Shown: positions 11,177-46,850 of the stretch, piece by piece
How the letters are laid out: the number at the start of each line of letters is the position of its first letter
How positions within the stretch are numbered: position 1 is the first letter of the stretch
From: a virus
IMG/VR virus record: IMGVR_UViG_3300033571_024432
Span: 52,708 to 116,707 of that record
Direction: 5' to 3' (one strand)
DNA length: 64,000 nucleotides
Notes under the pieces: generated by a model
What the model saw: only the letters and a program-made list of their open reading frames with translations
Databases searched by the model: none
What the model was told of the DNA's origin: nothing
Position numbers and translations under genes: made by a program

Positions 11177-11395
11177 ATGAAATTACATGATAATTCAATT
11201 TCGCATATTGCCAAAATTGTGCAAATGGCAATTTTAACAGGAACAGACATTGTTGATAATCTACGTTCTGTTGAATTTGATATTGAAAATGATTATTTAA
11301 AGGTAAATGAAGAATATGAAAAATCATTTGAATTAAATATTAATAAAATGATTGAAGATTTTATGAAATTACAACAAACACAAAACGAACAATAA
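11177..11395 (+). CDS. Small conserved-looking phage protein
   Basis: A 72-residue protein beginning MKLHDNSISHIAKIVQMAIL. AGGAG lies about six bases before the ATG. No domain is assigned. The N-terminal stretch resembles small proteins I associate with nucleotide-metabolism regions of other large phages, but this is from memory and unverified. It is the first gene behind a TTGTAA promoter, 12 bases before the dUTPase-like gene. Confidence 0.8.
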   Translation: MKLHDNSISHIAKIVQMAILTGTDIVDNLRSVEFDIENDYLKVNEEYEKSFELNINKMIEDFMKLQQTQNEQ

Positions 11396-11407
11396 TAAAG
11401 GAAAAAA

Positions 11408-11791
11408 ATGCAAAATTTTGATAGATTATCTGATATGTTTACTAAACGTGAATCATTTATGCATTTGTTAAGACAAAAATTCCCAAATGCTTATCCTGTT
11501 GCATGGCCAGTTGATTTAAGTAATAAAGATGCACAATCAAATATTAGAGATATTGCATTGAAAGGTGTTGAAGAAATGTTTGAAGCACTTCAGCATTTAA
11601 AAAACTGGAAATCACATAGAGAAACAGATATGCCTGATGTTAATAAGGATGAATTTTTAGAAGAAGTTGTTGATTCATTTAATTATTTTTTCTCTTTACT
11701 AATATTGGCTGGGTTTAATGAAAACGATTTTTTTGATGCCTTTAATAAAAAGGATGAAATTATCAGAAATCGTCTAACAAATAAATATTAA
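11408..11791 (+). CDS. MazG / dimeric dUTPase-like NTP pyrophosphohydrolase
   Basis: A 127-residue all-alpha NTPase. Metal-binding acidic helices are visible: ALKGVEEMFEALQHLKNWK and EEVVDSFNYFFSLLILAG, followed by the FFDAFNKKDEIIRNR helix typical of dimeric dUTPases and MazG-type enzymes. Predicted reaction: hydrolysis of dUTP (or another NTP) to the monophosphate and pyrophosphate, supplying dUMP to ThyX. Substrate choice between dUTP and other NTPs cannot be decided from sequence. A hairpin follows the stop. Confidence 0.8.
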   Translation: MQNFDRLSDMFTKRESFMHLLRQKFPNAYPVAWPVDLSNKDAQSNIRDIALKGVEEMFEALQHLKNWKSHRETDMPDVNKDEFLEEVVDSFNYFFSLLILAGFNENDFFDAFNKKDEIIRNRLTNKY

Positions 11792-11801
11792 ACCTATTAA
11801 A

Positions 11802-11832
11802 TTTTTCCTAATTATTTTAAAATTAGGAAAAA
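11802..11832 (+). promoter_or_regulatory. Stem-loop covering the next gene's Shine-Dalgarno
   Basis: TTTTTCCTAATT (11802-11813) and AATTAGGAAAAA (11821-11832) pair perfectly over 12 bp with a 7-base loop. The right arm contains the AGGAAA ribosome-binding site of the gene starting at 11836. It could end the upstream transcript or hide the start of the next gene, or do both. Confidence 0.65.
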
Positions 11833-11835
11833 AAA

Positions 11836-12522
11836 TTGTATAGAAAAAATGATAGAACAATACAAAAAATTATTAAAAACAGACAATCATGTTTTAAAAT
11901 AATAACAGAAATTTGGGAATATATTGAAACTGATTTGATATATTATTTAGGTATTTACAATGAATTTGATGCTCGTTTTGAATTAGTTGGAAATACTATT
12001 GATATTTGTTTTTTATCTAATAATGATGTTATTTTTGAAAAACAAATAGAATATGAATTTGAAAATAATAAAGAAATAGATTTTGAAATTGATATAAATT
12101 ATAAGTTAGCAGATATAAATTTTTTTGAAACATATATCTGTTATGATATAAATGCAATATCAGATCAAGGTAAAATTATTTCTTCAAAAATATTATTAAA
12201 CATAAACTATTCAGGAAATATTGATGGTCTAACATATTTTAAAATTGAGTTTATATTAAGTTTAATAAATGGAACACAAGAAATATTGAATATAAAAAAT
12301 AAAAACATAAAAGATAAAAATATTCTATTATTAGACTCTATATTAGAAGAAACGATTTGTTTAATGTTGCTTGATGATCTTATATTTCAAGATGCGATTG
12401 ACAAAATTTTTGAATTTCATAAAGGACTTTTTGATAAAATGAAGTATGAAGTTAAAGAAAAAATAAAGTTACAAATTGAAGAATTATATAATAGAATGTT
12501 TTTATTGGATTGTAAAAGTTAA
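11836..12522 (+). CDS. Hypothetical acidic protein, TTG start
   Basis: A 228-residue protein of unknown function, rich in I, N, E and D. No in-frame ATG lies near the N terminus; TTG at 11836 is seven bases after AGGA (11825-11828), so TTG is taken as the start. The Shine-Dalgarno sequence is in the right arm of a perfect hairpin. The last codons overlap the -35 box of the promoter at 12510. No domain was recognised. Confidence 0.75.
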   Translation: MYRKNDRTIQKIIKNRQSCFKIITEIWEYIETDLIYYLGIYNEFDARFELVGNTIDICFLSNNDVIFEKQIEYEFENNKEIDFEIDINYKLADINFFETYICYDINAISDQGKIISSKILLNINYSGNIDGLTYFKIEFILSLINGTQEILNIKNKNIKDKNILLLDSILEETICLMLLDDLIFQDAIDKIFEFHKGLFDKMKYEVKEKIKLQIEELYNRMFLLDCKS

Positions 12523-40853: not shown

Positions 40854-42506
40854 ATGAGCGATTTTTTATTTTTTGATATTGAAGCACAACAACATTTAAG
40901 AGTAGGCGTTGAAAAATTATATAAGGCAGTTTCTCAAACAATGGGACCACATGGCAAATTAGCATTAATTGAAAGAATGGGAAAACCACCTCATTTAACA
41001 AAAGATGGTGCTACAGTTGCAAAAAATGTAAAATTATCAAATCCTATTGAAAGTTTAGGCGCGTCATTAATCAGACAAGCAAGTGAACAAACTGCGCAAA
41101 CAGTTGGTGATGGATCTACAACAGCAACAGTCCTAACAAGAGAATTATACAATAAATCAATTCAAGCATTACAAACTGGTATTATTTCTTCAAATGAAAT
41201 GTCTAAATTATTAAAAAGTCGAGTTGAATTATTAGTAGAATATTTAAACGAAAACGCTCATAATATTTCAACTAATGAAGAAATTAGACAAATTGCAGCA
41301 GTATCAGCGAATGGAGATACAAAAATTGGTGATCTGATTGCACAAGCAATTTCAGAGGTAGGTTCTGCAAAATTAGTAACTGTTCAAAAAAGTAAAACAA
41401 CTCAAACAAATCTACAATTAGTAAAAGGTGTTAGAGTTGAAAGAGGTTATATTTCTCATTATTTTGCGAATGGTGAAGAAAGAAATAAATGTACATTAGA
41501 AGAACCTTTCGTATTAATTTTGAATTGTAAATTAAATTCTTTGTCTCAATTAATTCCTGTTTTAGAAAAAGTAGCAGCTTCAGAAAAAAGTATTTTAGTT
41601 ATTGCAAATGACTTTGAAGATGAAGTAATTCAAGCTATGATTACTAATGTAACAAGAGGCGCATTAAAAATTTGTGCAATTAAATCTCCTTTTTATGGCG
41701 AAAATAGAGCACAAATTCTTCAAGATTTGGCTGATTCATTACATAGTAAAGTGTTAAACGAAATTGATGAAAAGCAAATTAAAAATTTAAATTTAAACGA
41801 TTTAGGAACATGCAAATCTGCAATCATTTCTAATAATGAAACATTACTTGTTGAATGTGGTAAAAATAATGTTAAGAAATCAAAAGAAACAAATACCGGA
41901 GAAAGTATTAAACAAATTGACGTTTTATTACAAAACAAAGATTTATCAAAAGAAGAAGAATCATTTTTAAAACAAAGATTAGTTATTCTTAAAGGTGTAG
42001 TTGCTGTTTTATCAATTGGGGCATATACTGAAAGTGAATTACTTGAAACTTTTGATCGTGTTGATGATGCTTTACATGCAACAAAAGCTGCGATGGATGG
42101 AGGATTTTTACCAGGTGGTGGTTTATCATTATTACGAGCTGGTCAATTTTTAAGCAATATTGAATGTAGTGATTTAAAACAAAAAACTATAAATAAAATT
42201 GTTGCAGATGCTTGCATTTCACCAATGAGACAAATTTTAAAAAATGCAGAATTATCATCAGATTATATTATTGAAAAAATAAAAGATATTAATGATTTTA
42301 ATTATGGATATGATATTAGTAATGGAGAATTTTGTAATTTAATTAATGCAGGTATAATTGATCCATTACATGTTTCGATTACAGCATTAAGAAATGCAGC
42401 ATCATCTGCTTCATCATTAATAAATATTGGATGCGTTATTTTAGATAATCCACAAGAATATCAACAAGATGTTCAAATGGTGCAATTAGATGAAAATATG
42501 GAATAA
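40854..42506 (+). CDS. groEL: GroEL-like 60 kDa chaperonin
   Basis: A 550-residue group I chaperonin subunit. ATPase motifs are intact: TMGPHGKLALIE, LTKDGATVAKN, VGDGSTTATVL near the N terminus, and VDDALHATKAAMDGGFLPGGG near residue 415 with the catalytic-type Asp. The usual C-terminal GGM repeat is absent (ends QLDENME). An acidic/lysine insertion occurs near residues 335-375. It could fold the phage capsid or other large proteins. No co-chaperonin gene was identified, so host GroES or an unrecognised partner would be needed. AAGGAT precedes the ATG. Confidence 0.96.
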   Translation: MSDFLFFDIEAQQHLRVGVEKLYKAVSQTMGPHGKLALIERMGKPPHLTKDGATVAKNVKLSNPIESLGASLIRQASEQTAQTVGDGSTTATVLTRELYNKSIQALQTGIISSNEMSKLLKSRVELLVEYLNENAHNISTNEEIRQIAAVSANGDTKIGDLIAQAISEVGSAKLVTVQKSKTTQTNLQLVKGVRVERGYISHYFANGEERNKCTLEEPFVLILNCKLNSLSQLIPVLEKVAASEKSILVIANDFEDEVIQAMITNVTRGALKICAIKSPFYGENRAQILQDLADSLHSKVLNEIDEKQIKNLNLNDLGTCKSAIISNNETLLVECGKNNVKKSKETNTGESIKQIDVLLQNKDLSKEEESFLKQRLVILKGVVAVLSIGAYTESELLETFDRVDDALHATKAAMDGGFLPGGGLSLLRAGQFLSNIECSDLKQKTINKIVADACISPMRQILKNAELSSDYIIEKIKDINDFNYGYDISNGEFCNLINAGIIDPLHVSITALRNAASSASSLINIGCVILDNPQEYQQDVQMVQLDENME

Positions 42507-42789: not shown

Positions 42790-43575
42790 ATGTCAAATAT
42801 ATTATCTGAATATCAAGAAATTATTAAATCAAATCCTTTACTTTCACGTGAGCAAGAAGTAATTCTGGCTAAAAAAATTAAGGAAGGTGATTTAAATGCA
42901 AAAAATAAAATGATTGAAAGTAATTATAGATTAGTTATTAATATGGCTAAAAAATATTATGAAAACAATAAAAATTTAGATTTTCGTGATTTAATTGCTG
43001 AATCTCAATTAGGTTTATTAAAAGCAATTGAAAGATTTGATTATGAAAAAGGTTTTAAATTTTCCACTTATGCTTGTTGGTGGATTAAACAAGCATTAAT
43101 GAGTTTTATTAATGACTCTTCATGTTTAATTAAAACACCTCAAAACAATAGAGTTATTTCTTCAAAAGCAAAAAAAATAAGAAAAGAATATTTAGAGAAT
43201 TTTGGTTATACACCTGATAATTCAGAAATTGCAGATATTTTAGGTATTTCAAATACAACATTAAATAATGTCGAAAAAAATTCTCTTAAAATTATTTCAA
43301 TTGATGAAGAATTAAATTCTCAAAGTAATAATTCTTCATCAGATGCAAAGAAAACAAGTATTGGAGATGTTATTCCATCTAATGAATCATCACAATATGA
43401 CAAGATGGTAAATCAAGAATTAAGAAAAATATTAATTGATTCTTTAAAATTACTTAGTCCTAGAGAAGAAAAAATATTAAGATTAAGATTTGGATTATAT
43501 TCAAGTGATGATGACATTGATAATTTTCCAATGACATTAAATGAACTTTTAACATTAAACGCAAGAGATAAATAA
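42790..43575 (+). CDS. Sigma-70 family factor, regions 2-3 and start of 4
   Basis: A 261-residue sigma factor. A short region 1.2-like start (LLSREQEVILAKKIKEGD) is followed by region 2 (NYRLVINMAKKYY, LDFRDLIAESQLGLLKAIERFDYEKGFKFSTYACWWIKQAL in order), with the aromatic residues of promoter melting present. Region 3 carries KTPQNNRVISSKAKKIRKEY. Region 4.1 begins (LLSPREEKILRLRFGL) but the frame ends after NARDK, without the region 4.2 helix-turn-helix. That helix seems to be in the next gene. It probably directs host RNA polymerase to a phage promoter class. Confidence 0.93.
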   Translation: MSNILSEYQEIIKSNPLLSREQEVILAKKIKEGDLNAKNKMIESNYRLVINMAKKYYENNKNLDFRDLIAESQLGLLKAIERFDYEKGFKFSTYACWWIKQALMSFINDSSCLIKTPQNNRVISSKAKKIRKEYLENFGYTPDNSEIADILGISNTTLNNVEKNSLKIISIDEELNSQSNNSSSDAKKTSIGDVIPSNESSQYDKMVNQELRKILIDSLKLLSPREEKILRLRFGLYSSDDDIDNFPMTLNELLTLNARDK

Positions 43576-43576
43576 A

Positions 43577-43867
43577 ATGACAAAAAGAAAAAGAAATGTA
43601 TCAGTTGCAAATACAACAGGCTTGTCATATACAGAAATTAGTAAAATTATGACAGATTCAGGTGATAAAATGAATCATAATAATGTTAGAGCAATTATGA
43701 TTAAATCTTTTGCAAAAATTGCTGATCATATTGGTAAATTTTATAATGTGTATCATGATAAAGAAAAATTAGAAAAAATTGTAATTAATGCAAGTTTTCA
43801 AAATAATATAATTGAAATATTAAAAGAAGAAATTTTAATAAAAGAAAACGAAAAAGGTAAAAATTAA
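43577..43867 (+). CDS. Sigma region 4.2-like protein (second half of a split sigma factor)
   Basis: A 96-residue basic protein starting one base after the sigma stop. GLSYTEISKIMTDSG ... NHNNVRAIMIKSFAKIADHI has the layout of sigma region 4.2 (first helix, turn, then recognition helix ending in the K-A-x-x-K-I type motif). The start MTKRKRNVSV is basic. The AAGAGA at 43563-43568 could start it independently; a +1 frame change near the stop would also join both. It overlaps the next gene by one base. Confidence 0.82.
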   Translation: MTKRKRNVSVANTTGLSYTEISKIMTDSGDKMNHNNVRAIMIKSFAKIADHIGKFYNVYHDKEKLEKIVINASFQNNIIEILKEEILIKENEKGKN

Positions 43868-44529
43868 TGACTGTAAAAAAAATATTGATTTATCCTAATG
43901 ATAAACTAAAACAAGCAGCAAATAAAAGTGAATTGCAAGTAGATACTTTGAGAAATGTTATTAAAGATTTGTTAGACACAATTAGGCATTATGAAGGAAA
44001 TAAATTTTTAACAACAACGCAAATTGAATCTTCTGAAAATATTGCTATATTTGATTTACAAATGATTTATTCTAAAATGTTCAGAAATGATGAACGATTT
44101 TTAATAATTGCAAATCCTGAAATTCTTGATAAATCTAATGAAACAATTTGTATTCAGGAAACTTCTGGTTCAACACCGTTTTTTCAATGTGCATCAACAA
44201 AAAGTAAAAGTGTAAAAGTAAAATTTAATATTGTTAAACTAAAAGAACAAGACACAATTGAAAATGAAAGTCAAAATGAAAATGATGTTTCAATTATTAA
44301 AGGTTTAGATATTAATGATTTTACTTTTGAAGAACAAACTGTAACATTTTGGGATGATATGTCAATCGTAATGCAGTCTGCTATAGATCAATTAAATGGT
44401 AAATGTTTTTTAGATAATTTATCTTGGTTTAATAAATCTAGATATATGAAAAAACATAAAAATCAACTTAATTCATTCAAAAAATTGATTAAAAAAAATA
44501 TGTTAAGAGGCTTTGATAATTTAAAATGA
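43867..44529 (+). CDS. Peptide deformylase homologue, catalytically dead
   Basis: A 220-residue protein recognisable as a deformylase by its order of elements: ILIYPNDKLKQAA, the Gln-ending loop, IANPEIL, a VKVKF strand, and QLNGKCFLDNLSWFNKSRYMKK. The three active motifs are changed: GxGLAAPQ reads NKFLTTTQ (45-52), EGCLSxP reads ETSGSTP (98-104, so the metal Cys is S100), and HExDHLxG reads SAIDQLNG (171-178, so both His and the catalytic Glu are lost). No metal or catalysis is expected. An acidic insert (about 126-150) is extra. Possibly a regulatory or decoy role at the ribosome. Confidence 0.85.
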   Translation: MTVKKILIYPNDKLKQAANKSELQVDTLRNVIKDLLDTIRHYEGNKFLTTTQIESSENIAIFDLQMIYSKMFRNDERFLIIANPEILDKSNETICIQETSGSTPFFQCASTKSKSVKVKFNIVKLKEQDTIENESQNENDVSIIKGLDINDFTFEEQTVTFWDDMSIVMQSAIDQLNGKCFLDNLSWFNKSRYMKKHKNQLNSFKKLIKKNMLRGFDNLK

Positions 44530-45546: not shown

Positions 45547-46512
45547 ATGTTTTCAATTAAAGGTTCTTATAAATATCTTTTCGAAAGTGAAGAAGAAAAA
45601 AAAGAAAATAAAAAAAAATCAATGTCTAAAATTAATAAAAAAAAATTATCTAACTTGTTTAAAAAATCATATCCTGAATTTGTTCCTGCTTTAGCAGAAT
45701 TAACTAGTAATGATAAATTTATGAATTCTTTAGAAGGCGATGGACAAGGAGAAGATAAATTAGTTATTGAAACAAAACAAATAAGATGTAAGGATTTAAT
45801 ACCATTACAAAATGAAATAGGTGCATCTGAAAGTTTGGATTTTCCTTTAAAAAATAGATTACCTATTGAAAAAATTATAAAAATATGCAGTAATGAAGTA
45901 TGTGATGAAAATATATATGACAGTAAAGGAAGATCAATTATAACATCAGGTGGAAAATATATAGTAGATGGTCATCATAGATGGTCATCAATTTTTATAT
46001 TAAATCCAAATTGTATTATTGAAGTAAAAGATATTGGTACATATAAAAAAGGTGTTGATGCATTAAAATTATCGCAAATAATAATCGCTACTTTATCTAA
46101 ATTAAAAGGAACTATGCCATCTAAAAAGGCAAAAGGTATAAATATAATAAAGGCTGATCGATCAGAAATAATGAACTATATAGCAAATGAAATAACAAAT
46201 GATTTTATGTTAAACTATATTAAATCTATTAATTTAAACAAAATAGGAAATAGAATATTATTAAGTAAAAAATTTCAAAATAAAGCAGGTATTATTAGAT
46301 TTATTACAGCAAATTGTATGCTTTTACAATCAAATGGAATCGATTCTGAAGCTGAATATAATGATAGAAATTTAATGCCACAATTTGATGATTCAGGACA
46401 ATACTTATCAAGAGCATCTGATGGTGAGGTTAATTTAAGTGATATTAGACTAGCATTGGATGAAAATAAATTGCAATTAAATAAATGGAAAAAATTAGCG
46501 GGTTTATTATGA
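45547..46512 (+). CDS. ParB-like nuclease-domain protein with short leader
   Basis: A 321-residue protein. The start MFSIKGSYKYLFE (E13 before S14) is a short leader. At about residues 75-165 it has a ParB/Srx-like domain: KDLIPLQNEIG, SLDFPLKNRLPIEKI, and GKYIVDGHHRWSSIFILNPNC (the DGHHR-W motif), followed by IEVKDIG. Such domains bind nucleotides or cut DNA. The rest is helical. It ends ATGA over the next gene. Confidence 0.85.
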   Translation: MFSIKGSYKYLFESEEEKKENKKKSMSKINKKKLSNLFKKSYPEFVPALAELTSNDKFMNSLEGDGQGEDKLVIETKQIRCKDLIPLQNEIGASESLDFPLKNRLPIEKIIKICSNEVCDENIYDSKGRSIITSGGKYIVDGHHRWSSIFILNPNCIIEVKDIGTYKKGVDALKLSQIIIATLSKLKGTMPSKKAKGINIIKADRSEIMNYIANEITNDFMLNYIKSINLNKIGNRILLSKKFQNKAGIIRFITANCMLLQSNGIDSEAEYNDRNLMPQFDDSGQYLSRASDGEVNLSDIRLALDENKLQLNKWKKLAGLL

Positions 46513-46850
46513 AAAAATTATCTTTAAAAGAAGCATTTGATAGTCAAAAAGGGTTTGAAGAAATTATTAATTTTTCAAATAATATTGCAGATCAAATGAA
46601 TAAAGAACATGAAAATGAAATTAATAATCAAAAAGGTAGAAATTTTGATTATGGCACACAAATGTCAGATTCAGGTGAAGGTCAAATGGCAAAAGAAACT
46701 TGTAAATCAATAATTGAAAACGCAAGACAATTAGATTCTTTTTTATTAAATGAAGATGATATACCTGAATGGTGTCAAACTTATTTAGCAGTTTGTCAAG
46801 ATAGATTAAGAACTGTATTAGATTATTTAAAATCAAAGGATATTAAATGA
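46509..46850 (+). CDS. Small protein coupled to the ParB-like gene
   Basis: A 113-residue protein; the ATG at 46509 overlaps the upstream stop, and MKKLSLKE resembles a very short leader. The body is helical (FEEIINFSNNIADQMNKEHENEIN). No domain recognised. Its stop overlaps the next ATG (ATGA). Confidence 0.75.
   Translation: MKKLSLKEAFDSQKGFEEIINFSNNIADQMNKEHENEINNQKGRNFDYGTQMSDSGEGQMAKETCKSIIENARQLDSFLLNEDDIPEWCQTYLAVCQDRLRTVLDYLKSKDIK

Follow-up and report, generated by a model that had tools for sequence, protein, structure and literature searches.

Gene content of the locus

The window analysed in this study, a stretch of 64,000 nucleotides, covers bases 52708–116707 of a virus record of 116,707 bases. 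Within it, genes for GroEL, a sigma-70-like factor, a small HTH-like protein and a homologue of peptide deformylase (PDF), here termed P0001, lie on the same strand (Table 1), with the ATG of P0001 overlapping the stop codon of the HTH-like gene by one base. The sigma gene is the conserved upstream neighbour of phage PDFs and has 107 distinct relatives, 85 of which are followed by the HTH-like gene. The sigma gene ends after region 4.1 and the next gene resembles region 4.2; with this pair recurring so widely, the sigma factor of these phages would seem to be split. In the window, the region-4.2-like stretch of the HTH-like gene reads 'SYTEISKIM...MNHNNVRAIMIKSFAKI'. The relatives found through sigma or GroEL are large viral contigs carrying a block of exonuclease, small gene, GroEL, sigma and HTH gene.

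Several further features of this neighbourhood were observed. In relatives, a small gene follows the HTH gene (L012:10958-11353, L020:11081-11419, L165:10883-11275); its product exhibits an N-terminal motif of the 'FYxxRRK' type and a charged tail, and it is absent between the HTH gene and the PDF in the window. At 46485-46850 the window encodes a small protein without a strong family match, the core of which ('GRNFDYGxxxSDxxEGxMAK') recurs in 17 related loci. At L020:12663-14552 a gene that appears DnaK-like by eye lies directly after the PDF, and chaperones and PDF may thus cluster in these phages. Promoter and terminator scans gave no signal above shuffles. A tail-structural role for P0001, considered on account of a match to the 'tail adaptor' 9gb5 (E 0.007), was discarded: 9gb5 is absent among the fold-search matches listed, and the neighbours with family matches are exonuclease, GroEL and sigma, with no tail genes.

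Table 1. Features of the P0001 locus (positions in the window).
Feature	Position	Strand	Details
Phage GroEL	40854..42506	+	PHROG 5725, E 1.5e-131; member of the conserved neighbourhood
Sigma-70-like factor	42790..43575	+	Pfam regions 1.2, 2 and 3; stops after region 4.1
Small HTH-like gene	43577..43867	+	96 aa; directly after sigma; region 4.2-like by eye
Pseudo-peptide-deformylase gene P0001	43867..44529	+	220 aa; Pfam PF01327, AF2, fold match
Degenerate motif I, NKFLTTTQ (relatives GxGLAAPQ)	43999..44022	+	Residues 45-52; Gln52 kept; alignments
Degenerate motif II, ETSGSTP (relatives EGCLSVP)	44158..44178	+	Metal Cys replaced by Ser100; alignments
Insert of about 25-30 aa	44245..44319	+	Residues about 127-151; alignment, AF2
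Degenerate motif III, QSAIDQLNG (relatives QHExDHLxG)	44374..44400	+	Residues 170-178; alignments
Basic C-terminal helix	44425..44517	+	Residues 187-217, predicted; position of the E. coli PDF ribosome-binding helix

P0001 is a PDF homologue with a lost active site

P0001 is clearly a PDF homologue beyond chance, as had been claimed from its sequence: the Pfam family PF01327 (Pep_deformylase) matched with an E-value of 1.7e-20 and 73.7 bits (gathering cut-off 22.8), the PDF score in a search of its own record was 73.9 bits, and the best match to a solved PDF in the PDB (phmmer) had an E-value of 2.1e-12. P0001 falls below the NCBIfam equivalog cut-offs (TIGR00079, 53.8 bits vs 103.95; NF009484, 62.3 vs 190). 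Codon usage in frame amounted to 0.276 log units per codon, compared with 0.26–0.35 for the other genes of the phage and -0.9 to -1.4 for the other frames of P0001. Neither a second PDF, the intact copy that the original prediction had suggested looking for, nor a formyltransferase homologue was found in the 116,707-base record, which is possibly an incomplete genome.

When P0001 was aligned to E. coli Def and to 25 phage PDFs, the three motifs fell exactly where they had been read before (NKFLTTTQ, ETSGSTP and SAIDQLNG), with none of the four metal and catalytic residues (metal Cys, two metal His, catalytic Glu) remaining. The motif II core ETSGS (residues 98–102) keeps Glu98 and Ser102; in motif III, His171 is changed to Ser, Glu172 to Ala and His175 to Gln, and Gln170, Asp174, Leu176 and Gly178 are retained. 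Both motif I glycines that shape the peptide site are also changed. An alternative genetic code or a misreading as the source of these changes was rejected on inspection, because the remainder of the P0001 ORF does contain Cys and His codons. Since the metal and catalytic residues are lost, P0001 should be incapable of acting as a metal deformylase, and to judge from its sequence it is almost certainly without deformylase activity.

Predicted structure and the C-terminal helix

An AlphaFold2 model of P0001, built with 25 phage homologues aligned, reached a pLDDT of 87 and a pTM of 0.82. Foldseek matched it to 161 PDB chains at E <= 0.001, the best 50 of which are PDFs, and superposition with V. 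cholerae PDF (3qu1; VIA-align) gave a Z-score of 23.4 and an rmsd of 1.9 Å over 167/167 residues. The prediction thus matches the deformylase fold (Z about 23, rmsd about 2 Å), on which the original claim had been staked, although fold and homology are not fully separate lines of evidence, because PDFs were part of the alignment behind the model. In comparison to E. coli Def (1icj; Z 23.1 over 168 residues), P0001 matches over its whole length with the C-terminal helix in the same position, whereas sequence identity is 25%, the active-site C, H, E and H are replaced and an insert of about 30 residues is present. This insert sits in the hairpin before motif III, is the part of the model with the lowest confidence and is missing from nearly all aligned phage relatives; L078 has a partial one.

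The C-terminal tail of P0001 has a net charge of +10. In E. coli PDF the C-terminal helix binds the ribosome at the tunnel exit, with contacts through L149, K150, R153, K157, K160 and R163 (PMC12690207). By alignment, P0001 keeps the equivalents of R153 and K157 and has changed the other four, a weak indicator given that the helix is Lys-rich. Basic tails are common in this setting: phage PDFs in the same syntenic position carry 40–86 residues after motif III that are rich in Lys/Arg, with net charges of +9 to +29. Long Lys/Arg-rich ends were seen on the active PDFs of L008, L009, L015, L020, L027, L031, L033, L034, L040, L200 and others, which sets them apart from the truncated viral PDFs of PMC5591237. 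The retained basic helix of P0001 mildly favours a possible role at the ribosome exit, as far as can be read from the sequence.

Active PDFs are the rule in related phages

Scans of viral and genome contigs with P0001 alone found no relatives, and tblastn of P0001 against isolate phages returned four weak matches only. Two of these were inspected, MT836420 and the 'Listeria phage LM' contig, and rejected as phage relatives: both look like bacterial contamination, because an intact PDF adjoins fmt. We counted PDFs within 3 kb downstream of the sigma gene, which gave 29 distinct sequences, or 28 without L042 (a fragment copy of L043); these counts are limited to loci reached via sigma or GroEL, because a scan with a PDF pattern is biased to an intact motif III. 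All motifs, with the metal and catalytic residues, are intact in 26/28 of these syntenic PDFs, the exceptions being P0001 and the copy at L165. Active PDF is hence what this phage group conserves and P0001 is an exception, so that the 'conserved inactive form' of the original prediction finds no counterpart here: no close relative of P0001 turned up in viral or genome contigs, its substitutions are not kept in related phages (those of L165 differ), and most phages that come closest in GroEL and sigma have no PDF. Among the latter L043 is excepted, with an intact copy. Because these closest phages often carry no PDF, the function appears dispensable in them. The GroEL-bearing contig L250 (G064, 255937-256446) has a PDF match containing three stop codons, which may point to a genuine pseudogene, to fused frames or to a different reading of the code.

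In L165, the PDF (11385-12026) likewise follows sigma and the HTH gene, and its ORF is intact. Its motifs read RKVVSAPE, QTCHT and QKSMDFIYG: H is replaced by K, E by S and H by F, and the motif I Gln by Glu, with the metal Cys kept. The PDF fold is also predicted for this protein (pLDDT 90; Foldseek E 1.7e-12), its C-terminal tail has a net charge of +20, and by alignment the ribosome-contact equivalents L149, K150, K157 and K160 are retained. The sigma factors of L165 and L222 share about 80% identity, and the PDF of L222 is intact. P0001 and L165 have long branches in the PDF gene tree, where a grouping of the two could not be rejected; as this tree placed neither of them, the sigma tree was used instead. 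There, L165 is nested in an active clade (support 100/100); the window belongs to another clade (100/99), so that two changes to the dead state are required. Transfer of a dead copy is conceivable instead of separate losses.

Maintenance or decay of the inactive copies

Under a neutral model with the base composition of the phage, the P0001 ORF would stay open with a probability of about 1e-5 at 0.3 substitutions per site and of about 1e-7 to 2e-7 at 0.5 substitutions per site; this estimate ignores indels and is compatible with a recent loss of activity. Of the conserved columns outside the motifs P0001 keeps 11/17, in agreement with the earlier claim that fold-determining residues were retained, and L165 keeps 13/17, compared with 13–15 of 15–17 in active copies. 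Once sigma divergence is matched, P0001 and L165 show lower similarity outside the motifs than active PDFs do (z -3.9 and -3.1, respectively). P0001 is the sole known sequence of the window type and so offers no measure of selection after the loss, and pairwise dN/dS of L165 against its kin was not used because synonymous sites are saturated. In both proteins the fold would thus seem to be held under a looser or changed constraint, a pattern that fits a new binding role and a relic alike.

Interpretation

The fold of P0001 is known from phages: active phage-encoded PDFs have been described from Vp16, from cyanophage S-SSM7 (3uwa/3uwb) and as the marine 'Type 4' form (PMC5591237; also PMC7162821 for active phage PDFs), and the S-SSM7 enzyme superimposes on the P0001 model with a Z-score of 23.2 over 148 residues. 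These PDFs keep the three motifs and have a short C-terminal region without the ribosome-binding part, as reported for the Type 4 marine viral PDFs (PMC5591237); P0001, in contrast, lacks an active site, and its C-terminal helix is long and basic. Inactive homologues are already known in bacteria, where Type 3 or accessory PDFs show motif substitutions and weak or no activity (PMC12690207), comparable to P0001. Those are described as altered in motifs I and II, whereas in the phage protein all three metal ligands and the catalytic Glu are gone. A further parallel is offered by the syntenic active PDFs of related marine phages (L033, L031, L043, L222 and others), with a P0001-like place after sigma and HTH gene and basic tails; they differ from P0001 and L165 in their intact motifs. 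In a limited literature search, no published phage PDF that lacks a metal site came up.

The reading that we put first, as a serious possibility short of a probable one, is that P0001 has become a catalytically dead PDF whose retained use is binding, and that it plausibly docks at the tunnel exit by its basic helix. An ancestral active phage PDF would have stood in the conserved block of exonuclease, GroEL, sigma, HTH gene and PDF; the window lineage would then have lost the metal site, with gene, fold and basic C-terminal helix staying behind. The dead protein would since have been retained for binding, presumably maintained by selection after the loss: docked through its C-terminal helix where PDF binds next to the tunnel exit of the ribosome, it could, in the infected cell, compete with or displace the host PDF or further factors of the exit site.

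The main alternative is that P0001 is a functionless relic, an ex-enzyme under relaxed constraint in a phage that no longer needs its own PDF, and heading for loss. The gene is missing from sister phages within its sigma/GroEL clade, both dead copies diverged faster outside the motifs and several residues near the motifs of P0001 have changed too, all of which would be expected of decay; yet an intact ORF of 220 codons in a genome of 24% GC is improbable even at 0.3 neutral substitutions per site, codon usage is normal, and the fold residues and basic helix are retained. Phage genomes, moreover, usually lose useless genes fast, and we consider a relic somewhat unlikely. The retained fold would also suit a partner subunit or inhibitor which, with no contact to the ribosome itself, binds the host PDF or nascent chains that carry a formyl group and changes how these are processed. 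PDFs usually act as monomers, and in P0001 both motif I glycines that shape the peptide site are changed, which makes such a role improbable in our estimation, even though dead paralogues that control active partners are known, the deoxyhypusine synthase of trypanosomatids being an example (PMC3663545).

A factor acting with the neighbouring sigma or with RNA polymerase could be imagined from the overlap of the P0001 start with the HTH gene stop and from the shared strand with sigma, and the original prediction had taken this adjacency as a hint in the direction of RNA polymerase. In 26 relatives, however, it is an active PDF that takes this place behind sigma, separated from it in most cases by other small genes: the adjacency is inherited and no sign of a new role, and a link to transcription is accordingly most improbable. 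Of the original prediction as a whole, a PDF fold whose active site is entirely gone has stood, and its suggestion of the ribosome exit is the functional guess with the best support, whilst the conserved inactive family and the hint from sigma have found no support. That P0001 might still be enzymatic through different residues or metal ligands appears to us the most remote of these readings: three Cys and several polar residues are left and motif conservation is an imperfect guide to activity (PMC12690207), but the aligned metal positions hold no Cys or His and all four residues were lost at once.

The proposal of a dead PDF kept for binding can be extended, in a form that we regard as rather unlikely, to one clade of large marine phages in which PDF was repeatedly turned into a non-catalytic ribosome-exit binder controlling nascent-chain processing. 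In this scenario, the starting point would be an active PDF extended by a basic tail for ribosome binding; separate lineages would later have dropped the chemistry and kept the docking. Were P0001 a relic instead, it would offer a view of an auxiliary phage enzyme on its way from use to loss. PDFs rank with the most frequent translation-related genes of phages, and the usual account of their benefit is enzymatic, namely the processing of nascent proteins during infection (PMC5591237, PMC7162821). The finding of two separately inactivated yet intact copies in the same genomic place suggests that part of this benefit may be binding, not catalysis.
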